Shown in pieces: positions 3,777-16,483 of a DNA stretch of 64,000 nucleotides (position 1 is its first letter; the number at the start of each line of letters is the position of its first letter). Source of the stretch: Streptomyces solicavernae (GTDB lineage: Bacteria; Actinomycetota; Actinomycetes; Streptomycetales; Streptomycetaceae). Position numbers and translations under genes: made by a program. The stretch spans positions 62,001 to 126,000 of the forward strand of contig NZ_JASCIR010000004.1 of NCBI RefSeq assembly GCF_029968095.1, in the 5' to 3' direction. The notes beneath the pieces were generated by a model that did not search any database, was not told the DNA's origin, and saw nothing but the letters and a program-made list of their open reading frames with translations.

Positions 3777-4049
3777 GTGCTTGCTGCTCCTGTCGCCACG
3801 TCCGAGCGGCGCCGGTGGTGATGCGGGATCTCCGGGCCTCGCGGGGGCCGGGACCCCGTCCACTTTAATCGAGCGCGACCCGACCGATCAGATCGAGCCA
3901 GCCCCTGACCGGCCTGAACAGAGTTATCCACAGGGGTCGCCCCGCAACCGGCCCGGTGGCTAACCTCGTCGTAGATCAAGAGCCGGTGCGGCCAAGGGAG
4001 TTGGCGGGCGCGCACCGGCCGGTTGAGGCTGCGTACGGACGGGGGCGTC

Positions 4050-4475
4050 ATGGCGGACAGCATGTGGACGGACGAGGCGGCGGGGGAGCCGGACCGGAGT
4101 CGGGGAGAGGCCGGCGAAGCGCCGGGGGTGATCCCCGGGGACGCGCTGCCCCAGGGCGTGTGGCCCATCACCCTGCCCGGCGGCGCGGGTCGGATCATGG
4201 CCCGGGTCACCCCCACCGACCAGTACGAGGACCAGGACATCGGAGTCCTCGACACCGCGGGCGCCAGGCTGGAGCAGCTGGGCGAGCTGATCCAGGGCGT
4301 GGGCACTTCCGTGCTCGACGCCGCGCGGGCGGTGCGGCCGGACGAGGCGGCGATCACCTTCGGCGTCGAGCTGAGCACGAAGTCGGGCCGGGCGTTCGCG
4401 ATCCTCGCCGAGGGGGAGGCGAAGGCGTCCGTGCAGGTCACCCTCACCTGGCGCCTCGGCGACGGCGATGCCTGA
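4050..4475 (+). CDS. Trypco1 (CU044_2847-like) trypsin-co-occurring protein
   Basis: A 141-residue protein whose C-terminal ~100 residues match the Trypco1 pattern: a strand pair (VWPITLPGGAGRIMARV), a helix, then AAITFGVELSTKSGRAFAI and a final VQVTLTWRL strand. The family is named for its linkage to trypsin-like proteases in NTP-dependent conflict systems; its biochemical job is unknown and it may inhibit or scaffold the protease. ATG 4050 has GGGGG upstream. Its stop overlaps the next start by 8 bases. A TAACCT box at 3961-3966 may be the operon promoter. Confidence 0.82.
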   Translation: MADSMWTDEAAGEPDRSRGEAGEAPGVIPGDALPQGVWPITLPGGAGRIMARVTPTDQYEDQDIGVLDTAGARLEQLGELIQGVGTSVLDAARAVRPDEAAITFGVELSTKSGRAFAILAEGEAKASVQVTLTWRLGDGDA

Positions 4476-6756
4476 CCTGTCGGACCGGCTCGGGCGGCTG
4501 GTCGGGGCGGCCACCGTGCAGATTCACGCGCCCAAGTCCGACGCCGCCGAGCGGACCCGGCTGTGGGGGACGGGGTTCTTCGTTGCGCCGGGCTGGATCC
4601 TCACCTGCGCGCATGTGGTCCGCCCCTACCTGGACGCGTCGCGCAAGGGACGCTTCGGTGTGACCGGCGCGGTGGTCGGCGCGAGCACACCGGTGGAGGC
4701 GCGGCTTGAGGGCATGCTCTGGCGGGGCGGCAAGGACGGGGACATCCCCTTCGAGCAGGACCTCGCCCTGCTGCGCCTCGCGGACGACGCCTCGGCCGAG
4801 CGGCACTCCTGCGTCTGGTTCGCCGATTGGGCGGGGCGCACACTCGGCGACGAACGCTTCGTCCACGGGTACTACCTCGACGGATCCGGTCAGGTGCGGA
4901 CCCGTGAGGCGCTGGCCAAGGTCAGCGTGGCGGACGGCGCGGCGCGGCGGTTCGAGCCCATGGTGCAGTTCAAGAGCGGCCTGTCGGGGTCCCCGGTCGT
5001 CGCGCCGGAGTCCGGGGCCGTCGTCGGGGTGATGAAGGCGGGCCAGCAGGGGTACGGCGGCGCGGCCATGGACATCACGGCCCTGCGCGGCTTCGGCGAG
5101 CTGTACGCGGAGGTCGCCGCCGCCCACGATGTGTGGCACCACGGACGGCTCGGCCGGCCGGACAGCTGGGTCGCTCTGCAGGACCGGGCGGCCCGCGCCC
5201 CGGGCCGCGGCGCCACCGCTGACGCGTGGACACCCGTGGACCGCGCCACCGCCCTGCACCACCTCGCCGTGCTGCGCCGGGCCGTCCCCCGGAGCGCGGA
5301 GAGCGAGAAGCCCGGGGACATCTGTGTGCTGGTGCGCCAGGCCATGGGGCGCCGCTGGCTGTCCAACAGTCGCCCGCTGCCCCGGATTTGGCGGGACGGT
5401 CACGGCGAGCTGTACGACGGCGCGCGTCCCCTGGAGGCCCGGGTCTTCCTGCGGTACCTGCGCCGGGTGACCGAGTACGCGGAGTCCGACGGCCTGCACA
5501 CCGGCCCGCTGACGGCCTGGCTGGACGCACGGGAGGCGCGGCTCTCCGGGAAGCGGGAGGCCGCCGGGCCACGCAGCCCCGCACCACCCCCGGCCCCTCA
5601 TGCGCCCGGGAACGGCGGCCTGCCCGGAGAGGCCCCGCCCGCGCACCTCGACACCGAGACCCGCCCCGCGCACCCCGCCCCGGAGGCTCTGCCCGCGCGC
5701 CCCGGTCCGCAGGCTCTGCCCGCGCACCCCGGCCCCGAGGTTCTGCCCGCGCACCTCGACCCCCGGACCCGCCCCGCTCGCCCTGACCCCGGGCCCCGCC
5801 CTGACCCCGGGCCCCGCCCTGACCCCGGGCCCCGCCCCGACCCCGGGCCCCGCCCCGGCCCCGCGGTCCAGCCGGTCCACGCGCGGGCCGCGGAGGCCGC
5901 GGAACCGGTGGCGTACCCGCACCCGGGCAGCGCGCGCTCCATCGTCGTCCTGGAGATAGAGGAGGTCTCCTGCGAGGACCGCCGCTTCCGCTGGACCGTC
6001 CGCCTGGACCACATCGGCGAGGACGAGGAACTCCTCGGCGGCAGCGACGCGGGCGGCCCCGGCGTGCCCTACCGCGACCTGCTGCACGAGGTGGGCGAAG
6101 CCCTGACCGGCGCCTTCGAACGGGTCGACCTCGGCGGCTCGCCCGCACCGCTCGAAGTCGCCCTGCCGTACGACCACTTCGACGAGCCGGTGCACCAGTG
6201 GCAGCTCAACCACACCGTTCCGCTGCACCAGGACCCGGCCAAGGAGCCGCTCGGGGTGCACCGGCCGGTGGTGGTGCGCAGCCTGGAGCGGTTGCGCGCA
6301 CCGGACCCTGAGCGCAACGCCCGCCACGCCGACCGCTGGCACGACCTGCACGCAGCCGAGCGCATCAGCTCCCTCCGGCTGCCGCCCGCGGGCAAGTCGC
6401 TGCAGGCAGCGGTCGAGGGGAAGGCACCCGGCGAGGTGCCCGTGATGTGCCGGTCGGCCGGGGAGCGGACCGGGAAGCACGCGCTCGGCGAGGTCCTCGG
6501 GCAGGACCACGGTGTCGCCCTGTGGCACGGCACGGGCCATGCGGGCAGCCCCTGTGGCGACGCCTGCACCGCACTGCACGAACAGATCGGCGACGTCTTC
6601 CGGGTCAGCCGACGGGCCGACCGGCTCGCCTACTCCGTATGGCAGTTGCGCCGGGACATCGCGCGTCACAACAACGGCCCGCACCCGGCATCCGGCCTCG
6701 TGCTGTTCTACGACCGCCCGTTGGAGGACACGGACGTACTGGACGCACCGGCATGA
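4468..6756 (+). CDS. Trypsin-like serine protease with VMAP-C-type C-terminus
   Basis: A 762-residue effector-like protein. Residues 1-220 are a chymotrypsin-fold protease with a complete triad: His49 (TCAHVV), Asp98 (EQDLALL) and Ser173 (SGLSGSPV). Residues ~365-470 are a Pro-rich linker with tandem PDPGPR units. The C-terminal ~290 residues resemble the C-terminal domain of vWA-MoxR-associated proteins (VMAP-C), with the conserved end region GVALWHGT...LVLFYDRP. No secretion signal is seen, so it should act in the cytoplasm. Coupling to Trypco1, MoxR and vWA genes suggests that its proteolysis is released by the ATPase/vWA switch (inference from the described ternary systems). Confidence 0.85.
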   Translation: MPDLSDRLGRLVGAATVQIHAPKSDAAERTRLWGTGFFVAPGWILTCAHVVRPYLDASRKGRFGVTGAVVGASTPVEARLEGMLWRGGKDGDIPFEQDLALLRLADDASAERHSCVWFADWAGRTLGDERFVHGYYLDGSGQVRTREALAKVSVADGAARRFEPMVQFKSGLSGSPVVAPESGAVVGVMKAGQQGYGGAAMDITALRGFGELYAEVAAAHDVWHHGRLGRPDSWVALQDRAARAPGRGATADAWTPVDRATALHHLAVLRRAVPRSAESEKPGDICVLVRQAMGRRWLSNSRPLPRIWRDGHGELYDGARPLEARVFLRYLRRVTEYAESDGLHTGPLTAWLDAREARLSGKREAAGPRSPAPPPAPHAPGNGGLPGEAPPAHLDTETRPAHPAPEALPARPGPQALPAHPGPEVLPAHLDPRTRPARPDPGPRPDPGPRPDPGPRPDPGPRPGPAVQPVHARAAEAAEPVAYPHPGSARSIVVLEIEEVSCEDRRFRWTVRLDHIGEDEELLGGSDAGGPGVPYRDLLHEVGEALTGAFERVDLGGSPAPLEVALPYDHFDEPVHQWQLNHTVPLHQDPAKEPLGVHRPVVVRSLERLRAPDPERNARHADRWHDLHAAERISSLRLPPAGKSLQAAVEGKAPGEVPVMCRSAGERTGKHALGEVLGQDHGVALWHGTGHAGSPCGDACTALHEQIGDVFRVSRRADRLAYSVWQLRRDIARHNNGPHPASGLVLFYDRPLEDTDVLDAPA

Positions 6757-6932
6757 GCGCCCGGACCGCGGGGCCGGAGTTCGGCCAGGAGTGCGCGCCA
6801 ACGGTATGGCTGGAAAAGGCCGTTCGCGAGGGTGGCTTTGGGTACATTTTCAGGGGCCCGTTGTGGGCGAGGGCCACCCTCGTCGGCCAGCGCGCGGCAA
6901 GCCATCGAACGCTGACGAGGAGCGAGCCATGA
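6753..6932 (+). CDS. Possible small ORF (59 aa) linking the protease and MoxR genes
   Basis: An open frame of 59 codons fills the gap between the protease and MoxR genes, with four-base ATGA overlaps at both ends: its ATG overlaps the protease stop, and its TGA overlaps the MoxR start. This layout argues for a translated gene. Against it, codon choice is unlike the neighbours (GTA, GAA, GTT, GGT, TTT, ATT, CCA, GCA, CAT), and the protein (with VWLEKAVREGGFGYIF in the middle) matches no family I know. The alternative is a 170-bp untranslated spacer holding a promoter for MoxR. Confidence 0.35.
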   Translation: MSARTAGPEFGQECAPTVWLEKAVREGGFGYIFRGPLWARATLVGQRAASHRTLTRSEP

Positions 6933-8023
6933 GCGACTGGCTGATCTTCCGGGGCACGGGGAAGCCCGCCCGGAACCGCATCGCGGACCTGCCCGAAGCA
7001 CCCCACTGGCGGCGCTTCGACGGTACGCCGCCGCCCGAGGACGAGGACCGGGCTCCCGAGATCGACCACTCCTCGCTGCGCCGCCTCGGCGACAACCCGA
7101 TCCTCCGCATCCAGGAGGAGCGCACCCTCCAACTGATCAACGCCGCCCTCTATTTGAGGCGTCCGCTCCTGGTCACCGGAGCCCCCGGCGCCGGCAAGAG
7201 CACCCTCGCGCACGCGGTCGCCCATGAGCTCGGGCTCGGCCGGGTGCTGCAGTGGCCGGTGGTCAGCCGCACCGAACTGAAGGACGGCCTGTACGCCTAC
7301 GATGCCATCGGCCGCCTCCAGGACACCCAGCTCGACGCCCACCGGTCGGGCGCGCCCCGGTCCGCAGCCGCGCGGGCAGGCGGCGGTGCCCGCCCACGCC
7401 CCGGCGGCCGCCTCGCGGGGACCCGGCGCAGGAGCGACATCGGCCGGTACATCAGGCTCGGGCCGCTCGGCACCGCACTGCTGCCGACCCGGCAGCCGCG
7501 GGTGCTGCTCATCGACGAGCTGGACAAGAGCGACATCGACCTGCCCGGCGACCTCCTCAACGTCATGGAGGAGGGCGAGTTCGCCATCCCCGAGCTCGAA
7601 CGCATCGCGGGCCGCGACGGCCGGGACCAGGTGACGGTGCTCAGCGACGACGGCCGGCCCGTGGTCGTGACCGGAGGACGGGTGCGCTGCCGGGCCTTCC
7701 CGTTCATCGTGATGACCAGCAACGGCGAGCGGGAGTTCCCGCCCGCGCTGCTCCGCCGCTGCATCCACCTCAACCTCGAACCACCCAGGGGCCGGCGCCT
7801 CGCCGCCATGGTCCAGGCCCACTTCGGCGAGCGGGCGGACGAGACGCACAGCGATGTCTTCGACCTGTTCACCCAGGACGGTGGCGGGATCCACCGCCCC
7901 ACCGACCAGCTCCTGAACGCCATCTTCCTCACCCAGCACGCGGCCCAGCAGGAGGACCCGGCCCGCCGCGCGGAGATCGCCCGGCTGCTCATCGAGGCCC
8001 CCGACCAAGAACCCAGGCGCTAG
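6929..8023 (+). CDS. MoxR-family AAA+ ATPase
   Basis: A 364-residue MoxR/RavA-type ATPase. Walker A is GAPGAGKS at 84-91, Walker B VLLIDELD at 192-199, sensor-1 Asn in MTSNGEREF at 263-265, followed by the LLRR arginine pair near 276. MoxR ATPases work with vWA proteins as chaperone-like modules that remodel or activate a partner. The start is the ATG before SDWLIFRG, with GAGGAGCGAG upstream. The vWA gene follows after 5 bases. The substrate is probably the protease/VMAP protein encoded just upstream (inference). Confidence 0.92.
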   Translation: MSDWLIFRGTGKPARNRIADLPEAPHWRRFDGTPPPEDEDRAPEIDHSSLRRLGDNPILRIQEERTLQLINAALYLRRPLLVTGAPGAGKSTLAHAVAHELGLGRVLQWPVVSRTELKDGLYAYDAIGRLQDTQLDAHRSGAPRSAAARAGGGARPRPGGRLAGTRRRSDIGRYIRLGPLGTALLPTRQPRVLLIDELDKSDIDLPGDLLNVMEEGEFAIPELERIAGRDGRDQVTVLSDDGRPVVVTGGRVRCRAFPFIVMTSNGEREFPPALLRRCIHLNLEPPRGRRLAAMVQAHFGERADETHSDVFDLFTQDGGGIHRPTDQLLNAIFLTQHAAQQEDPARRAEIARLLIEAPDQEPRR

Positions 8024-8028
8024 CCGTC

Positions 8029-11000
8029 ATGCCCGTCGAGCCCCCGCACGTCGAGCCGTCGGCCGTCGAGCCGTCGCACCCCGACCCCCTCACCCTGCTC
8101 GTGTCGCGGCTGCGCGACGTGGGCGTGGAGCCGGACCCGGAGGAGCTCGCCGACGCCCTGTGGCTCGCCCGGTGGGTGCCGCCCGACACCGTCGCGGACC
8201 CCCGCCCGGGCGCCGCCGACCCCGTGCACCCGGCGGAACCCGCACCGCCGCATCCGCCCGGCGGGCAGCACCGGCAGCAGCCCCCCGCCGTACCCCCGGC
8301 GCCCGCCCCGACCGCCGACCGGCAGCAGCGCAGGCCGGCCGGGACCGTCGAGCTGACGGTGCCGGGCGCGGACGGCGACCGCCTCCGCGAGGGCACGAGG
8401 CCCGTGCGGGTACCGACCGCCGTCACGTTCCCCGACGCCCAGTCGCTGCAGCGCGCCCTGCGCCCGTTGCGCCGGTTCCGGCCCGGCGGCGGAAGCGGCG
8501 GAGGCGGCGGTGCGCGCAGCGTCCTTGACGAGCGGGCCACCGCCGAGCGCACCGCGGACACCGGCCTGATCCTGCCGGTCCTGCGCCGCTCCCGGCGCCG
8601 CGAGGCCCGACTGCGCCTGGTCATGGACGTATCGACGTCCATGGTCGTCTGGGAGGACACCTTCACCGAACTGCGGGAGATCTGCGAGCGGTCCGGCGCC
8701 TTCCGCGAGGTGCGCCCGCACTTCCTCCGCGAAGGCCCGCACGGCGAGCCCGCCGTCACCGCGACCCCGGACGGCGGCGGTCCCCCGCAGTCCGCCGCGC
8801 AGCTGCGCGACCCCGCCGGCCACCAGGTGATCCTCGTCCTCAGCGACTGCGTGGGGCCGATGTGGCGCGACGGCGGCATGCAGCGACTCCTGCACAGCTG
8901 GGCCCTCGACAGCCCGGTCGCCGTGGTCCAGCCGCTGCCCCAGCGGCACTGGCGCCGCACCCATCTGCCCGCGTACGAGGGCGAGTTACGGCGCCACGAG
9001 GGAACCGCCGGGCGGATGGACTTCCGGCCCGGGCGTGGCGCGGCACCGCCGCCGCGCGGGGCGCTCCCGGTGCCGGTGATCGCGCCCCGGCCCGGGCCGC
9101 TCGGCGCCTGGGCGCGGCTGGTGTGCGGCGGCACCGAGCAGCGGCTGCGCGCCTCCGCCGGCTGGGTGCGGGCCGACCACCCGCGGTCCACCGCCGTACG
9201 CGGCTCGGACCGGGTGGTGTCCCCGCGCGAGAGGCTGCGGTCCTTCATCCGCACCGCCTCGCCCGCGGCGGTCCGTCTCGTCGGGCATCTGTCGGCCGCG
9301 CCCCTGGTGCTGCCGGTGATGCGCCTGGTTCAGCGGGCGATGCTCTCCGGCAGCGGGCCGGACGTACTCGCCGAGGTGCTGGTCGGCGGCCTGGTGCGGC
9401 GCGCGCGGGACATCGAGGGGCTGCACACCTACGCATTCGTCGACGGGGTGCAGGAAGAGCTGCTGCGGCGCAGCGAACAGAGCGACCTGCACCTCGTCCT
9501 GAAGCACTGCTCGAAGTACGTCGAGCAGCGGTACGGCAGGTCGGTGCGGAACTTCCCCGCGCTGGCGGCCGCCCATGTCGAGGGGCACGGGCCGGCCGGC
9601 GCGGCCCCGCTGCTCGGGCCGGACGGAGTGCCGCAGGACCCGGTGCTCCGGGAGTTCGCGCGGGTCTCCGCCGCGGTGATCGGACGGTTCGGCGGCGACC
9701 TCGCCGTACCCCTCGTCACCGGCGCGACCGGAACGGACGGCACCGTCGCCGCACCCGGGGAACTCCTCGCGCGCGCCCGGGTGTTGCTGCGGACCTTCGA
9801 GGGGGACGGCGGCGACTGGGCGCTTGACGACGCCGAGGAGCTGCTCCGCCACCTCGGCGCCGACGACACCTTCGCGGACGCCGTCACGGCCCGCATCGAG
9901 CTGGGCGACGTACTGCTGCAGCGCTGGCGGACGAGCGCCCGGCCCGGCGATCTCCTGGAGGCGTACGACACCGTCCGGGCGCATGCCGGGCGGCACCCCG
10001 TGGCGGCCCTGACGTACGCCCGGGTCCTGGACGCCATGGCGGAGGAAGAGCTGCGCTCGGGGCCGGGCTCGGCGGTGCTGCCGAACCGGGTGCGCGTCGA
10101 GGTCGCCCAGATCGCCGCGGAGGCACCGGAGTCCGTCCGCGTCGGCAGCCTGCGCAGAGCCTTGGCGGCGCTGCTGTTGCTGCGGGACGAGGACGAGACG
10201 CTGGCCGCTGCCTTCGACCGGCTCGACCGGCTCGACCGGCTCGACCGGCGCGGGGCACCGCAGGACGAACCGATGCTCCGCACCCTCGGCGTGCTCCGGG
10301 CCGGGGCGCTGCGCCGGGCGGCGCAGTCCGCCGCCGCGGTCGCCCGGCTGGCCGGACAGGGCGAGGCCACCGTGGACCGCGCCTTCGGCGAGGCCCTGGA
10401 CCGGCTGGCGGAGTGGACGGACCACCTGGTGCGGAGACTGGAGCGCGGTACGGGCGTCAAGCCCGACCTGCGCCTGCTGCGCGGACTCGCCCAGCTCGAC
10501 CTGGCCCGCCGGAACGCCGGACGCGGCCCGCAGCCACGCCCCCCGGCCCGGCGGGACCCGCAGGCGCGGCGCTGGAGCGCGGAGCGGGCGGTCCAGGACC
10601 TGGAAACCGCGCTAGGGAGTGGCTCCCCGATTTCTGCGGGTCAACGACGATCGGAGGGGCACTCCCTAGGCCTCCCGCGCGGCGAGCGCCCGCACCCCCC
10701 AGGCGAACTGAGCATGCACTGGCTGGAGTTGGCCGCGGCGTACGAGCTCTGCGACGAGCCGGAGGACGCGTCGCCCGAACGTCTTGGCCGGATCCGCGCA
10801 GCGCTCGACCAGGCGGCGCTGGCGGCCGAGAGCACCCCCCAGCTGATCAGGAGCCTGACGCACCGGGCGCTGCACTACGCCGGGTTCGGCCACCCGTACG
10901 GCACCCCCGCGGACGACCGCGCCAGAGCCGTTGCCGACCTGGACCGGGCCGTCGGACTCGGCTCCGAGGACGCCGGCCTGTACGCCCTGCGCGGCCGCCT

Positions 11001-11799
11001 CCTGCTCGGCGCGGACGAGGCGCCGGGGACGTACGGCTACGCGGTCCGGTACGAGGCATCCGACCCGCAGCTCGAAGACGCGGTGCGGTCCCTGCGCGCG
11101 GCCCTCGACCTGACCGTCGGCAGCGACCCCCGGGCGTCCGGCCGCCACCTGCTGTTCGCCGTGGCGCTGCGCGCCAGGTTCCGTCGCGGGGCGGCGCTGT
11201 CCGACCTCCACGAGGCGGACTGGGCCCTGGGCGTGGCCATGCGGGAGGGGGAGGACGACGTCGTCGCGTATGCCGCGTACCACCGCGGCCAGGTCGCCGA
11301 CGCGCTCGCTCGCCGCACGGGGGCGCACAAGTACCGGGTGACGGCCGCCGACCACTACCGCAGGTGCGCGACGCAGGCCGAACAGCTCGACTTCGCCACG
11401 CTGGCCGCGGCGGCGCGCGTCGAACGTGCCGGCGCCCTGCTGGCGACGGCGGGCCCGCACGTGGCCAGGGCGGAGCTGCGGCGGGCCGCCGCCCTGCTGA
11501 ACGACGGACCCGAGGGGGACGACGGCCCCGCAGGGGACCCGGAGGGCGCGGTGGACGCCTCCGGTCTGCTGAGTCGCGGCCGGGAAGAGGACCCGGAGGA
11601 GCCGGAGGAGCCGGAGGACCCGGAGGAGCCGGAGGAGCCGGAGGACCCGGAGGACCCGGAGGACCCGGAAGGCACGGTCGACGCCGGCGGCCTGCGCCGC
11701 GCGGATCTCCTGAGGCGCATCCGGCGGGAGCTGGACGCCTTGGACGCGGCGGCCCCGGCCGCGCACCGGCCCCACCGATCCCCGGACTCCCGCCCATGA
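8029..11799 (+). CDS. Large vWA-domain protein (SAV_2336-like) of the MoxR-vWA module, contains a TTA codon
   Basis: A 1256-residue protein. Residues ~15-55 form the short N-terminal helix pair of the SAV_2336-type family, ~60-160 are Pro- and Gly-rich, and ~185-400 are a vWA domain with MIDAS motif DVSTS at 200-204. The rest is helical, TPR-like, ending in an acidic EEPEDPEEP run. Codon 320 (8986-8988) is TTA, the leucine codon read only by the bldA tRNA in Streptomyces. RLD units repeat in tandem near 10219-10250. A 61-bp imperfect palindrome (10611-10671) sits inside the C-terminal half without breaking the frame. The stop overlaps the next ATG by four bases. Confidence 0.85.
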   Translation: MPVEPPHVEPSAVEPSHPDPLTLLVSRLRDVGVEPDPEELADALWLARWVPPDTVADPRPGAADPVHPAEPAPPHPPGGQHRQQPPAVPPAPAPTADRQQRRPAGTVELTVPGADGDRLREGTRPVRVPTAVTFPDAQSLQRALRPLRRFRPGGGSGGGGGARSVLDERATAERTADTGLILPVLRRSRRREARLRLVMDVSTSMVVWEDTFTELREICERSGAFREVRPHFLREGPHGEPAVTATPDGGGPPQSAAQLRDPAGHQVILVLSDCVGPMWRDGGMQRLLHSWALDSPVAVVQPLPQRHWRRTHLPAYEGELRRHEGTAGRMDFRPGRGAAPPPRGALPVPVIAPRPGPLGAWARLVCGGTEQRLRASAGWVRADHPRSTAVRGSDRVVSPRERLRSFIRTASPAAVRLVGHLSAAPLVLPVMRLVQRAMLSGSGPDVLAEVLVGGLVRRARDIEGLHTYAFVDGVQEELLRRSEQSDLHLVLKHCSKYVEQRYGRSVRNFPALAAAHVEGHGPAGAAPLLGPDGVPQDPVLREFARVSAAVIGRFGGDLAVPLVTGATGTDGTVAAPGELLARARVLLRTFEGDGGDWALDDAEELLRHLGADDTFADAVTARIELGDVLLQRWRTSARPGDLLEAYDTVRAHAGRHPVAALTYARVLDAMAEEELRSGPGSAVLPNRVRVEVAQIAAEAPESVRVGSLRRALAALLLLRDEDETLAAAFDRLDRLDRLDRRGAPQDEPMLRTLGVLRAGALRRAAQSAAAVARLAGQGEATVDRAFGEALDRLAEWTDHLVRRLERGTGVKPDLRLLRGLAQLDLARRNAGRGPQPRPPARRDPQARRWSAERAVQDLETALGSGSPISAGQRRSEGHSLGLPRGERPHPPGELSMHWLELAAAYELCDEPEDASPERLGRIRAALDQAALAAESTPQLIRSLTHRALHYAGFGHPYGTPADDRARAVADLDRAVGLGSEDAGLYALRGRLLLGADEAPGTYGYAVRYEASDPQLEDAVRSLRAALDLTVGSDPRASGRHLLFAVALRARFRRGAALSDLHEADWALGVAMREGEDDVVAYAAYHRGQVADALARRTGAHKYRVTAADHYRRCATQAEQLDFATLAAAARVERAGALLATAGPHVARAELRRAAALLNDGPEGDDGPAGDPEGAVDASGLLSRGREEDPEEPEEPEDPEEPEEPEDPEDPEDPEGTVDAGGLRRADLLRRIRRELDALDAAAPAAHRPHRSPDSRP
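10611..10671. repeat. 61-bp imperfect palindrome inside the vWA gene
   Basis: CTAGGGAGTG at 10612-10621 is repeated perfectly inverted as CACTCCCTAG at 10660-10669. The similarity extends inward (GGCTCCCCGA against TCGGAGGGGC), leaving a core with GGGTCAACGACGA. Translated, it gives a Gly/Ser-rich segment between two helices of the TPR-like region. It looks like a short mobile palindromic element tolerated in frame. Confidence 0.5.
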
Positions 11800-11978
11800 C
11801 GCCTCCCCACCTGGGGGCCGACGCCTCCGCGGAGAAGCCCCTGCCCGCATTCCCCCGCCCGGGCCCCGGCACGGTCAGCCACCCCGTGCTCGCCGCGGTC
11901 CTGGCGGAGGTCGAGGAGCGCGAGGCGTCCGGCGAGGCGGGGCCGGCGTACTACTCGGACGCGGCGGACCCCAGGTGA
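11796..11978 (+). CDS. Candidate RiPP precursor peptide (60 aa) for the adjacent radical SAM enzyme
   Basis: A 60-residue peptide with ATGA overlap to the vWA gene and GTGA overlap to the maturase gene. The N-terminal part is Pro-rich and is followed by an amphipathic helix (HPVLAAVLAEVEEREAS), a plausible leader. The C-terminal core ends GPAYYSDAADPR. It lacks the F-x-S-x-x-COOH terminus of classical FxsA peptides, but the YYS and YSD triplets fit the aromatic-X-polar pattern that FxsB-like enzymes crosslink into cyclophanes. Position between vWA and radical SAM genes is the main support; no homolog was checked. Confidence 0.65.
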   Translation: MTPPHLGADASAEKPLPAFPRPGPGTVSHPVLAAVLAEVEEREASGEAGPAYYSDAADPR

Positions 11979-13276
11979 GCAGGCCCGGGAGGTACGGGGA
12001 AGAGCCGGGCGGCGGACACGGGGGCGGAGCGCGGGACGGGTTCCGGCAGTTCGTCCTCAAGGTCCACAGCCGCTGCAACCTCGCCTGCACCTACTGCTAC
12101 ATCTACACCGGCCCGGACGGCAGTTGGCGGGACCGCCCCCGCCGCGTCCCCGACGCCACGGTCCGCCAGGTCGCCCACCGCATCGCCGAGCACACCGCCC
12201 GGCACGGCCTCGCCCGGATCCGGATCGACCTGCACGGGGGCGAGCCGCTGCTCTCCGGCGCCGGGTTCCTCGTCGCGTACGCCGACACGGTGCGTGCGGC
12301 GGTACGGCGGGCGGCGCCGGCGGCACGCGTCGACGTCACCGTGCAGACCAACGGCACCCTCCTCACCGAGGCCGCCCTGGACCGGCTCGCCGCCGCCCGG
12401 ATCCGGGTCGGCCTCAGCCTGGACGGCGGCACGGCCGCGCTGAACGCCCGCCGGGTCGACCACACGGGCCGCTCGTCCTGGCCGGCAGTCCGCCGGGCCG
12501 CCGGACTCCTGGCGTCCCGCCCCGATTCGTACGCGGGCCTGCTGAGCACCATCGACCTGGCCACCGACCCCCGCGAGGTGTACCGCTCGCTGCGCCGCCT
12601 CGGCCCGCCCGCCCTGGACTTCCTGCTCCCGCACGCCCACTGGGCCGACCGGGCGCCCGGCCGCCACCGGCCGAGCCCCACGCCGTACGCGGACTGGCTG
12701 ATCCCCGCGTTCGAGCTGTGGTGGGCCGACCGGGAGGAGGGGCGGCCCCGGCTGCGGCTGTTCAGTGAGATCCTGGCCGTGCTGCTCGGCGCCGACAGCG
12801 CCACGGAGGCCGTGGGCCTGTCCCCGCTGGCCGTGGTCGTCGTCGACACGGACGGCGCGATCGAGCAGGTGGACGCGCTCAAGTCCGCGTACGAGGGCGC
12901 GCCCGCCACGGGGCTCGACGTGTTCCGCCACTCCTTCGACGAGGCGCTCCGCCACCCCGGGGTCGCCGCCCGCAGGCAGGGGCTGCGAGCGCTGGCCGAG
13001 GTGTGTCTGTCCTGCCCCGTGGTGCGGGTCTGCGGGGGCGGCAACTACGCCCATCGGTACGCCGCCCGCACCGGGGGCTTCCGGCACCCCAGCGTGTACT
13101 GCGCCGACCTGGAACGCCTCATCCGGCACCTGGCCGACCGGCTGGCCGGCGAACTGGACCCCGCCCGCGACGCCCGCGCCCGCGAAGCCCCCGCCCGCGA
13201 CGCTCGCCCCCATGACGCACCGGAAGGGACCGCTGAGGCATTCCTGAGCAATCGGGGAACAGACTGTTGCAACTGA
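11975..13276 (+). CDS. FxsB-type radical SAM/SPASM cyclophane peptide maturase
   Basis: A 433-residue enzyme. The radical SAM CX3CX2C cluster motif is at Cys34, Cys38 and Cys41 (SRCNLACTYCYIY), with GGEP following. The C-terminal auxiliary-cluster region has Cys344, Cys347 and Cys353 in CLSCPVVRVCGGGNYAHRY, plus Cys376. This is the FxsB-family signature; such enzymes join an aromatic side chain to a residue two positions on in a precursor peptide. The last ~55 residues are low-complexity and acidic/basic, and not conserved as far as I know. The GTG start overlaps the precursor stop. The expected substrate is the peptide at 11796-11978. Confidence 0.88.
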   Translation: MSRPGRYGEEPGGGHGGGARDGFRQFVLKVHSRCNLACTYCYIYTGPDGSWRDRPRRVPDATVRQVAHRIAEHTARHGLARIRIDLHGGEPLLSGAGFLVAYADTVRAAVRRAAPAARVDVTVQTNGTLLTEAALDRLAAARIRVGLSLDGGTAALNARRVDHTGRSSWPAVRRAAGLLASRPDSYAGLLSTIDLATDPREVYRSLRRLGPPALDFLLPHAHWADRAPGRHRPSPTPYADWLIPAFELWWADREEGRPRLRLFSEILAVLLGADSATEAVGLSPLAVVVVDTDGAIEQVDALKSAYEGAPATGLDVFRHSFDEALRHPGVAARRQGLRALAEVCLSCPVVRVCGGGNYAHRYAARTGGFRHPSVYCADLERLIRHLADRLAGELDPARDARAREAPARDARPHDAPEGTAEAFLSNRGTDCCN

Positions 13277-13355: not shown

Positions 13356-16325
13356 ATGACCGCTCCAGACCAGCCACAGCACCTCGCCCTCGTCCACGCA
13401 GGCCAGTCCGCCCACTGGGCCGCCTGGATGAGCGAGCGGCTGTCCAGGCTGGGCGCAGAGACCAGCTCGGTGCTGTGGGACCCGCTGCGCCGGCGTCCGG
13501 ACGCCGAGGACCTCGCCGGGATCACCGCCCGGCCGGGGCCGATCGTGCTCGTCCTCGACGACTGGTTCCTGCGCGTGGACCACCGCCGCCCCGACGCCTG
13601 GGGCGACCTCGTCCGCGAGCTGGCGCCGGACGTCCGCGAACGCCTCGTCATGGTCTCCGTGACCGCCTCACCGGTGCCGGAGGGGCTCACCCGGCTGGGG
13701 CCGGTCCTGGAGCTCCGCGGGTTCAGGGCCGAGGTCGTCGAGGCCCGGCTGCTCGCCGCCATCGGCCTGACCCCGGTGTCGGACCGGCCCGTCGACCTCA
13801 GCCGCGGACGCTTCCCCGACACCACCTGGAAGGCGCGGAACACCCCCCGCCACAACAGCCGCTTCACCGGCCGGGAGGCCGTACTCGCCGAGCTGCATGA
13901 GAAGTTCACCACCGGCGGTGACGGCGCGCGCGTCGCGCTGCACGGCGTCCAGGGAGTCGGCAAGCGGCACACCGCCATCGAGTACGTGCACCGGCACGCC
14001 GCCGAGTACGACACGGTGTGGTGGGTCAACGCGGCCAAACGCGCCACCGCCCGGGAGGAGTTCGCGGGACTCGCCGACAAGCTGGGCCTGCCCGTGGACC
14101 ACGGCGACGCGCTGCCCGGCCGCATCGACGCGGTCAAACGGGCGCTGGAGAAGCGGAGCGGCTGGCTGATCGTCCTCGACGGGGCCGAGGAGCCCGAAGA
14201 GCACGCCGCGATCCTGCCCGAGGGCCCCGGCGACCTGCTGATCACCACGACGAACACCCTGTGGGGCGGCAGCGGAGCGGAGCTCGTGGAGCTGAAGCCC
14301 TTCGAGCGGGACGAGTCCGTCACCTTCGCCTGCCTGCGTACCAACAGACTCAGCAGGGACGCGGCGGCCGAACTCGCCGACGCCGTGCAGGACCTGCCCC
14401 TGCTGCTCGCCCAGACGGCGGCCTGGCTCGACAGCAACGCCACCGTCGACGTCGCCGGCTACCTACGAGACCTCCGCGAGGCGAACCCGCACGAGATCGA
14501 CGTCTCGACCGACGGCGCCGACCGCACGTTCCAGATGGTCTGGGGCATCACCCTCAACACGCTGCGCGACAAGCACCCGCACGCGCACGAACTCCTCTGC
14601 CTGCTGGTGTTCTTCTCGCCGGACGCCATCCCCGTACGCCTGCTGCGCACCGCGCGGGCAGCCGACCTGCCGGACCATCTGGCCGCGCTCGTGGCCGAGC
14701 CGAGCAGCTGGAACGCGACCCTGCGCAAGCTGTCCGAGGCCACCTCGATGCGCCTGGAGTACGACCAGGGGCCGTATCTGGACACCAAGGTCGTGTCCGC
14801 GCTGCAGATGCACCGCATGTTCCACCGCTTCGTCCGCCTGCAGCTCAGCGCGGAACGGCAGGCGGCGGCCTCCGCGATCGCCTGCCAGGTACTGGTCGCG
14901 GCCGATCCGAGGGACCCGGGGGACGCGGGCAACTGGGCGCGGTACGCCGAGCTGATCCCGCACCTGGAGGAGACCGGCGCGCTCACCTCCACCTCCCCCG
15001 ACGTGCGCACCCTCGTCCTCAACTGCATCGAGTACCTGCGGGTGCGCGGCGAGTACAAGGAGGGCGTCCGGCTCTGCCGGGCCACCGTGGACGCGTGGAC
15101 GCCGGTGTCCGGGGCCACCGACCCGAAGGTGCTCGTCGCCTCCCACCAACTCATGGTGATGGAACGGCGGTTGGGCGACTACGGCGCGGCGGAGCAGCTG
15201 GGCCGCCAGGTCCTGGCCGCGGTGACCTCCGTACCGGAACCGGGCCCGGTCCAGGTGGTGCGGGCCAAGAACGGGCTCGCCGGCACCCTGATGGCCCTCG
15301 GCCACTACGAGGAGGCCCGCTCCCTGCTCGCGGACGCAGCGGCCCTGTCCGCCGATGCCCTCGGCGAGGAGGGGGTGCCGCGCACGCTGGCCACGCGCAG
15401 CAACCTGGCCATCGCGCTCGGCCTCAGCGGCCGCTACGAGGAGTCGCACGAGCTGCACCAGGCCGTTCTGCGGTCCAGCATCGAACTCCTCGGCGGCAGA
15501 AGCCAGTCCACCCTGCACGCGGGCCTGCACACCGCCTGGATGCTCCGCCTTCTCGGGCGGTACGGCGAGGCCCTGGACCTCCAGGAGCAGAACAGCCATC
15601 TGCACTCCCAGGTCTTCGACAAGAACCACAGCCAGAGCCTGCTCTCGCAGCACAACCTCGCGCTGTGCCGGCGCCGCGAGGGCGACATCGGCTTCGCCCG
15701 GCTGATGATGAAGTCGGTCCTGGACCGCCTCTCCCGCCGCCGCGGCCCCGGCCACCCGGAGACGCTGCTCGTGAGTACGGACTACGCGATGCTGCTGCGC
15801 GAGCAGGGCACCCTCGACGAGGCGCGGGAACTGGCCGAGGACACCCTCGGCCGCTACCGGCTGCTGCTCGGGGGGCACCACCCTTACGCGGCGGGCGTGT
15901 TGGACAACTGCGCGCTGATCCAGCGCTGCCAGGGCGAGCACGAAGGCGCCCTGGCCCGCGCCGAGGAGGCCCGCTGGCGGATGGAGCGGGCCCTGGGCCG
16001 GCAGCACGTCTGGGCCATCGGCTGCGCGATGAACAGCGCGTCCGCGCGGGCGGCCACCGGTGACCTGGCCGGTGCCGTGGACCTGGGGCGGGACGCGCTG
16101 GGCCGGGCCCGCGCCGAGATCGGCGAGCGGCACGTGCTGTCCCTGAACGTGGCGGCGGGCCTGGCACAGGACCTGCGCGCGAGCGGTGCCGCCGAGGAGG
16201 CCGAGCAGGTGCACCAAGAGGCGCTGACCGTCCTTGAGGAGAACCTCTACGACAAGCACCGGCAGGTGCGGTACATGTTCGAGGGGCGTCGGCCCTACTG
16301 GGACTTCGAGCCGCAGACCATCTGA
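13356..16325 (+). CDS. TIR-like/NB-ARC/TPR protein (FxsT-like)
   Basis: A 989-residue STAND-type protein. Residues ~8-145 resemble a degenerate TIR-like sensor/effector (ALVHAGQSAHWAAWM...). The NB-ARC core follows, with P-loop GVQGVGKR at 197-204, Walker B WLIVLDGAEE and the LLITTTN strand. From ~540 to the end are tetratricopeptide repeats with the NLAIALGLSGRYEES type of unit. The family accompanies FxsB systems. The residue after the P-loop lysine is Arg instead of Thr/Ser, which may weaken nucleotide binding. GGAGGAGG precedes the ATG. Confidence 0.87.
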   Translation: MTAPDQPQHLALVHAGQSAHWAAWMSERLSRLGAETSSVLWDPLRRRPDAEDLAGITARPGPIVLVLDDWFLRVDHRRPDAWGDLVRELAPDVRERLVMVSVTASPVPEGLTRLGPVLELRGFRAEVVEARLLAAIGLTPVSDRPVDLSRGRFPDTTWKARNTPRHNSRFTGREAVLAELHEKFTTGGDGARVALHGVQGVGKRHTAIEYVHRHAAEYDTVWWVNAAKRATAREEFAGLADKLGLPVDHGDALPGRIDAVKRALEKRSGWLIVLDGAEEPEEHAAILPEGPGDLLITTTNTLWGGSGAELVELKPFERDESVTFACLRTNRLSRDAAAELADAVQDLPLLLAQTAAWLDSNATVDVAGYLRDLREANPHEIDVSTDGADRTFQMVWGITLNTLRDKHPHAHELLCLLVFFSPDAIPVRLLRTARAADLPDHLAALVAEPSSWNATLRKLSEATSMRLEYDQGPYLDTKVVSALQMHRMFHRFVRLQLSAERQAAASAIACQVLVAADPRDPGDAGNWARYAELIPHLEETGALTSTSPDVRTLVLNCIEYLRVRGEYKEGVRLCRATVDAWTPVSGATDPKVLVASHQLMVMERRLGDYGAAEQLGRQVLAAVTSVPEPGPVQVVRAKNGLAGTLMALGHYEEARSLLADAAALSADALGEEGVPRTLATRSNLAIALGLSGRYEESHELHQAVLRSSIELLGGRSQSTLHAGLHTAWMLRLLGRYGEALDLQEQNSHLHSQVFDKNHSQSLLSQHNLALCRRREGDIGFARLMMKSVLDRLSRRRGPGHPETLLVSTDYAMLLREQGTLDEARELAEDTLGRYRLLLGGHHPYAAGVLDNCALIQRCQGEHEGALARAEEARWRMERALGRQHVWAIGCAMNSASARAATGDLAGAVDLGRDALGRARAEIGERHVLSLNVAAGLAQDLRASGAAEEAEQVHQEALTVLEENLYDKHRQVRYMFEGRRPYWDFEPQTI

Positions 16326-16347: not shown

Positions 16348-16463
16348 GAAACCGCGCCGCACCCCGACCACGAAACCGCGCCGCACCCCGACCACGAAAC
16401 CGCGCCGCACCCCGACCACGAAACCGCGCCGCACCCCGACCACGAAACCGGGCCGCACCCCGA
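16348..16463. repeat. 24-bp tandem repeat, four full copies and a partial fifth
   Basis: The unit GAAACCGCGCCGCACCCCGACCAC repeats exactly at 16348, 16372, 16396 and 16420. A fifth partial copy from 16444 (GCGCC changed to GGGCC) forms the left arm of the terminator at 16446-16483. The array looks like amplification of the terminator arm in the convergent gap. Confidence 0.9.
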
Positions 16464-16483
16464 AAAAGGGGTGCGGCCCGGTT
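16446..16483. terminator. Bidirectional terminator hairpin between the NB-ARC gene and kgd
   Basis: A 16-bp perfect stem, AACCGGGCCGCACCCC against GGGGTGCGGCCCGGTT, closes a GAAAAA loop. It sits between convergent genes and should stop transcription from both sides. Confidence 0.85.

Follow-up and report, generated by a model that had tools for sequence, protein, structure and literature searches.

Introduction

The closest described counterparts of the peptide considered here are the YxdB triceptides, attributed to Sugiyama et al. 2022 in the review PMC11002830, in whose accessible text the linkage made by YxdB is C3(Tyr)-Cβ(Asp). The same text gives C4(Phe)-Cβ(Ser) for MscB, C2(His)-Cβ(Ala) for HaaB and, for YhhB, a Tyr or His linked to Arg. 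Curated models exist for precursors with Tyr-x-Asp near the C-terminus (NF041709, "YxD-tail cyclophane-containing RiPP peptide"), and for the FxSxx-COOH peptides (TIGR04268) and their maturase FxsB (TIGR04269). Peptide genes and SPASM enzymes are also found in VMAP ternary systems (Kaur et al. 2020, PMC7159879), where, in the accessible sections of that paper, the peptide is proposed to be a toxin or an amplifying signal; an alternative wiring of these systems is offered in the part of PMC10907252 that is open to us. YxD peptides go unmentioned in the accessible parts of both VMAP texts, and the literature titles and abstract openings searched, a scope outside which most subscription papers lie, hold neither a YSD clade nor YxD peptides in VMAP systems.

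Here we describe a short reading frame beside an FxsB-family maturase in a 64,000-nucleotide stretch of Streptomyces solicavernae DNA, called the window below. Like the NF041709/YxdB triceptides, its product has a leader of the form HPVL...R, an aromatic-x-Asp tail and an adjoining FxsB-family radical SAM/SPASM maturase, but it scores 30.7 bits where the family model requires 55, its middle core residue is Ser and not Glu or Asp, and its follower is AADPR instead of AP. With the FxSxx-COOH/FxsB loci it shares the maturase family, an LP...HPVL leader, a SAV_2336-type gene upstream and FxsT downstream, whereas its core is Tyr-x-Asp, it has no TIGR04268 match, and no TIGR04267 HExxH gene lies between its maturase and FxsT.

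Results

The locus and its maturase

The peptide (MTPPHLGADASAEKPLPAFPRPGPGTVSHPVLAAVLAEVEEREASGEAGPAYYSDAADPR) ends in AYYSDAADPR, without a Phe-x-Ser end. Its gene overlaps the SAV_2336-type gene upstream (stop at 11799) by ATGA and the maturase gene downstream (start at 11975) by GTGA (Table 1). An earlier sequence-only reading of this DNA had described this frame, overlapping both neighbours and lacking Phe-x-Ser, as a non-canonical FxsA-like precursor. The description is confirmed. With a leader akin to those of FxSxx-type precursors and homologues at related loci, the product has the look of a precursor for the adjacent FxsB-family maturase.

Table 1. Features of the locus, in window coordinates
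Feature	Position	Strand	Evidence
Trypco1 (trypsin-co-occurring) protein	4023-4475	+	PF19493 58.5 bits, NF041216 69.9 bits, over cut-off
Trypsin-fold protease with VMAP-C domain	4468-6756	+	PF13365 46.2 bits, PF20028 117.1 bits, over cut-off
MoxR-like AAA ATPase	6926-8023	+	PF00004 29.5 bits, PF07728 26.3 bits, over cut-off; start codon assumed
SAV_2336 N-terminal-domain protein	8029-11799	+	NF041121 452 bits (cut-off 200); start codon assumed
Putative YxD-type cyclophane RiPP precursor	11796-11978	+	60 aa; NF041709 match and homologues beside related maturases
Leader motif PLPAF, residues 15-19	11838-11852	+	L and P of LP each in 74 of 76 aligned precursors
Leader motif HPVL, residues 29-32	11880-11891	+	H 72, P 68, V 70, L 74 of 76
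Predicted cross-linked core Y53-S54-D55	11952-11960	+	first column Y/F/H 76/76, third D/N/S 76/76
Five-residue follower AADPR	11961-11975	+	AADPR in L007, AADPK in L008
Predicted FxsB-family radical SAM/SPASM cyclophane-forming maturase	11975-13276	+	TIGR04269, ChlB homology and invariant cysteines
FxSxx-COOH-system TPR protein FxsT	13356-16325	+	NF040586; TIR-like N-terminus, NTPase region, TPRs

The maturase passes TIGR04269 with 433.5 bits (cut-off 370) and falls under the cut-off of the YhhB model NF041707 (332.6 bits against 445); no YxdB-specific model appears among the best 25 of its 62 NCBIfam matches listed. Its closest solved relative is ChlB (PDB 9gm3, 9gmc), matched over residues 25-395 (E 3.5e-80 for 9gm3). 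The cysteines C34/C38/C41 and C344/C347/C353/C376 are invariant in 39 aligned rows, an alignment that takes in 39 of 80 maturases and leaves out L048 because of a stop codon. A second FxsB-family enzyme is not supported in the window's genome (89% complete), where one match lies over the cut-off and two weak ones lie below it. Nor do 43 plasmid records support a close plasmid relative of the maturase, all of them lying below 60% identity. One annotated public plasmid record carries a comparable 63-codon precursor, haaA, which does not overlap its neighbours.

Related loci and the predicted position of the ring

We fetched 79 loci (best 80 of 135 confirmed places) by exact matching of six eight-residue patterns taken from the window maturase; since the patterns came from this one enzyme, the sample leans to near relatives. 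A precursor HMM built from 15 seeds, the window among them, was run over six-frame ORFs. With limits of domain E < 0.01 and 1.2 kb from the maturase, it placed a homologous precursor upstream of that gene in 76 of the 80 loci, the window being one of them, and 61 of these 76 rows were not seeds. The four loci with no call are L022, whose short ORF ending in ARYEDAP reached E 0.7, L081, with an ORF ending in FAGFNDCIF, L067 and L085.

Across the 76 aligned rows, the Y53 column holds Y 45, F 25 and H 6, and that of D55 holds D 57, N 11 and S 8. The column of Y52 is mixed (Y 36, G 14, H 11, A 5, F 4, D 2, and one each of Q, S, R and N). By core type there are 45 YxD, 11 FxN, 8 FxS, 6 HxD and 6 FxD rows. 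The middle residue of the YxD rows is E in 33, D in 9 and S in 3, the Ser being confined to the window, L007 and L008, which are also the three loci of the sample with the YSD plus AADPR/K variant. Because the columns of Y53 and D55 are conserved and that of Y52 is variable, we take Y53-S54-D55 as the counterpart of the known cross-linked triplets. We judge it probable, with good confidence, that the frame is a YxD-type triceptide precursor and that its ring would lie at Y53-S54-D55, identity and position being taken jointly.

The sequence-only reading had placed a Tyr-centred core away from the very C-terminus, offering Tyr-Tyr-Ser or Tyr-Ser-Asp. The alignment agrees with the first point, and conservation of the YYSD region in relatives, looked at here in the sequences, is compatible with it; of the two triplets Tyr-Ser-Asp is favoured and Tyr-Tyr-Ser is disfavoured. 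The core is followed by two residues in 45 of the 76 rows, by five in 6, and by as many as 32 in one. Since 31 of the 76 precursors carry more than two, a ring set back from the C-terminus is common and not special to the window.

The maturase tree (80 rows) runs along the same lines. The window groups with L007 and L008 (support 100/100) and then with L009 (99/96), inside a 58-row group (99/99) made up of all 45 YxD rows, the 6 HxD and 6 FxD rows and L022, while 17 of the 19 FxS/FxN rows form a separate group with L067 (100/99). L065, L073, L081 and L085 stand apart on long branches; placement is unsure for these and for the long branches of L051 and L063.

Two readings compete with a ring at Y53-S54-D55. 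Radical SAM/SPASM enzymes are chemically diverse, the window enzyme scores below the YhhB cut-off, and we know of no experimentally tested member of the YSD clade, all of which would suit a maturase that performs other chemistry on the tail (a pair of overlapping rings, for example, or an ether bond, or no cross-link on this substrate). Such an outcome is nevertheless improbable given the TIGR04269 score, ChlB as the closest solved homologue, and tail columns that agree with the triceptide substrates described in the accessible text of PMC11002830. Less probable again is a ring on Y52-Y53-S54, of the aromatic-x-Ser, FxS-like kind: the 40 rows with a residue other than Tyr in the Y52 column, 25 of them with neither Tyr, Phe nor His, and the Y53 and D55 columns, Y/F/H and D/N/S throughout, speak against it, even though the window, L007 and L008 all contain the triplet YYS, eight relatives have an FxS core at the aligned place, and the review text reports the Phe-Ser link of MscB. 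The Y53-S54-D55 ring is the reading used below.

Some relatives differ in their cores. L037 (2851-3237), L040 (5597-5938) and L064 (5552-5935) have tandem two-core precursors, GAYFSDAP...GAYFADTP (...FADAP in L040); their cores are read as Phe-x-Asp with long followers, and double-ring products are possible. A His-Glu-Asp core (AYHEDSP/AYHEDAP) lies upstream of the maturase in L012, L019, L052, L053, L057 and L066, and at 1015-1236 in L051; a His-Asp link is absent among the linkages named in the accessible text of PMC11002830. L051, L052 and L053 each have two unlike precursors, ending in YHEDSPGVER and FYEDGPYQL.

The precursor frame as a gene

From stop to stop the precursor frame spans 716 open codons, and because this is GC-rich DNA an open frame is no evidence of a gene by itself. 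It was compared with L007 and L008 by dN/dS, region by region, the borders between regions being the analyst's choice. With few changes in each comparison, the values for window-L007, window-L008 and L007-L008 were 0.25, 0.14 and 0.07 in residues 27-49 and 0.30, 0.27 and 0.24 in residues 50-60. For residues 1-26 they were 2.0, 0.93 and 3.4, and for the entire peptide 0.85, 0.38 and 0.40. The four-base start/stop overlap between precursor and maturase recurs in 36 of the 76 loci, mostly YxD ones (32 of 45). The match to a curated model, the precursors at 76 of 80 maturases and the low dN/dS of residues 27-60 against L007 and L008 raise the ORF above chance. A degenerate or non-translated frame, open between two genes through GC bias only, would fit its 716 codons, the lack by eye of a Shine-Dalgarno-like stretch ahead of the ATG and the unconstrained residues 1-26, but is scarcely credible beside the NF041709 match, the homologues in the equivalent place, the low dN/dS of residues 27-60 and the retained overlap.

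Family assignment

Among 18,950 NCBIfam models the peptide matches NF041709 (E 2.2e-7, 30.7 bits) over profile positions 16-47 of 47, reaching into the tail, and its Y53-S54-D55 aligns with the YxD columns of the 45 rows, so that the Tyr-x-Asp near the C-terminus that marks the family is present. No other NCBIfam model is listed for it at E ≤ 10, TIGR04268 included (cut-off 28 bits; Phe-x-Ser followed by just two residues, an ending that the peptide lacks), and no Pfam model at E ≤ 1; HMMER filters discard most matches above E 0.1.

Ten relatives were scanned with NF041709. L010, L018, L047 and L052 pass its cut-off, and L007 (28.4 bits), L008 (29.4), L064 (31.6), L062 (31.8) and the YEDAP-tailed L009 (43.7) and L011 (35.3) fail it. 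L062 is an FxN-type precursor that passes TIGR04268 at 49.3 bits and matches NF041709 over profile 2-36, that is, through its leader. Since it slightly outscores the window in this way, the NF041709 score speaks for kinship among precursors only, and the type call YxD comes from the tail columns. Because 30.7 bits falls short of the equivalog cut-off, the window peptide lies outside the curated equivalog and is filed as a sub-threshold relative expected to act alike. The match also speaks against the peptide as a new class: the idea of a new kind is not supported, as the curated YxD family and, in the accessible text of PMC11002830, Tyr-x-Asp cyclophanes already exist.

Searched against 392 genomes of the genus, the window peptide found 10 matches at E ≤ 0.001, one of which is itself; the best of the others has 75% identity, and four weaker ones run across a stop codon. 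With NF041709, matches at E ≤ 0.001 were obtained in 75 of the family's 297 genomes, 9 of them over the cut-off; the figure of 75 overstates YxD peptides because many weak matches end at about profile 35-41 and are of the leader type seen with FxS peptides. A viral origin is not supported: 50 pattern-matching stretches in viral contigs include none that encodes a relative.

Two gene orders

FxsT scores 710.7 bits against NF040586 over residues 164-989 (cut-off 300). In Pfam, TPR_12 and TPR_10 are over their cut-offs and NB-ARC is below (16.9 against 23.5). The structure model of its N-terminus (13356-13844) has a mean pLDDT of 74.3. A structure search with it gave one match at E ≤ 0.001, a TIR-STING, and the 50 matches listed are a mixture led by TIR domains with many receiver domains (query TM 0.39-0.57). 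In this moderate model the N-terminus appears TIR-like, which falls short of proof and agrees with the accessible text of Kaur et al. (PMC7159879). NADase activity is not suggested, because no Glu is found among the invariant or nearly invariant N-terminal columns of 34 rows.

The distance from the maturase to FxsT separates the loci by tail type. It is 79 bases in the window, at most 257 in all 53 Y/H/FxD loci with FxsT downstream, and at least 1459 in all 17 such FxN/FxS loci; downstream of the maturase in L047, L051, L059, L068, L077 and L085, the retrieved stretch contains no match to FxsT. In the three loci scanned for it (L062, L073, L082) the intervening gene belongs to TIGR04267, the HExxH peptide beta-hydroxylase family. 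A tblastn search with three FxS/FxN-type query proteins (E ≤ 1e-3) detected an HExxH gene in none of the 56 Y/H/FxD loci, in 18 of the 19 FxN/FxS loci and in 3 of the 4 for which no precursor was called. L089, a divergent TIGR04267 match, escapes this search, and a divergent copy elsewhere in a flank is possible. Between maturase and FxsT themselves, the small gap leaves no HExxH gene in the 53 Y/H/FxD loci. No TIGR04267 gene lies beside the window's maturase, and the only match in its genome (89% complete) is on another contig.

Neighbouring genes

VMAP ternary systems, as presented in the accessible text of PMC7159879, share with the window a MoxR-like ATPase, VMAP-C with trypsin and Trypco1, as well as a separate downstream TIR-like NTPase-TPR gene, a peptide gene and a SPASM enzyme; the SAV_2336-type protein is a candidate for their vWA-like protein. 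In the window the matches to PF20028, PF00004, PF13365 and PF19493 are all over their cut-offs. The peptides of the described systems are FxSxx, RxD, acidic and FtsH-associated ones, and a metallopeptidase-like core gene accompanies them, whereas the window's peptide is YxD and its cluster has no such gene. The SAV_2336-type protein has no Pfam hit at E ≤ 1, vWA included, a DVSTS motif being seen by eye only; the MoxR-like ATPase gives 69.8 bits with NF047784 (MadB), below the cut-off of 475. Y/H/FxD loci with at least 5.5 kb of upstream sequence have MoxR-like matches in 44 of 47, SAV_2336-type in 45 and VMAP in 41.

L047 and L059 have a YxD precursor and a maturase with no tblastn match to the window's VMAP, MoxR, SAV_2336 or FxsT proteins in about 6 kb on each side; these are possibly stand-alone systems. 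A known defence family for the cluster genes was also sought and rejected: for seven proteins, all PADLOC matches were weak and covered part of the protein. Viperin models fell on the maturase's radical SAM core, an unnamed candidate on the TPRs, and others on AAA or protease parts.

Position 42 of the precursor is a conserved Arg, shared by 62 of the 76 rows. In the VMAP protease, inspection by eye shows the H, D and GLSGSP serine motifs and no acidic residue at the expected trypsin-type S1 place, and because of the latter a trypsin-like cut after Arg42 is a guess. An acidic low-complexity repeat (EDPEEPEEPEDP...) occupies about 11586-11675 in the C-terminal part of the SAV_2336-type protein. 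Directly behind FxsT there is a short tandem repeat (about 16348-16470), one frame of which reads as HPDHETAP repeats, followed on the opposite strand by a gene that looks by eye like 2-oxoglutarate dehydrogenase E1.

Discussion

At the level of sequence, the homology, the four-base overlaps, the conserved core and the intact enzyme cysteines are established; the Tyr-Asp ring is predicted by analogy with YxdB. The leader (PLPAF ... HPVLAAVLAEVEER) would guide the precursor to the FxsB-family radical SAM/SPASM enzyme, which, if it follows the YxdB precedent, would abstract a hydrogen at Cβ of Asp55 and join this carbon to ring carbon C3 of Tyr53, with loss of 2 H. The product would be a three-residue cyclophane with Ser54 between Tyr53 and Asp55 and AADPR trailing. 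For the later steps we offer guesses: the leader may then be removed, and the ring-bearing tail may serve as a ligand, signal or effector peptide within the Trypco1/trypsin-VMAP/MoxR/vWA-like/TIR-like-NTPase-TPR system.

Gene neighbourhood, the one basis for it, hints that the ring-bearing tail acts in a VMAP-type conflict system, a possibility that we hold tentatively and with more doubt than trust. Going further, the Y/H/FxD branch could be a separate, hydroxylase-free triceptide whose tail is an internal ligand or safety catch of the trypsin-VMAP/TIR-like NTPase system. We regard this as unlikely; were it true, the Arg- or Lys-ending follower of the window clade would make the ring protease-facing and not a C-terminal cap.

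The finding is real, and the peptide belongs, as a divergent member, to a kind that already has a name. It extends a known ring-forming peptide family to a clade that scores under the cut-off of the curated model, and the residues expected to be cross-linked are now specified. Across the 75 fetched loci with typed tails there is a nearly clean split between FxS/FxN precursors with a hydroxylase and Y/H/FxD precursors without a detected one, and many loci of both types adjoin predicted conflict-system genes, which makes the function of the peptide testable.
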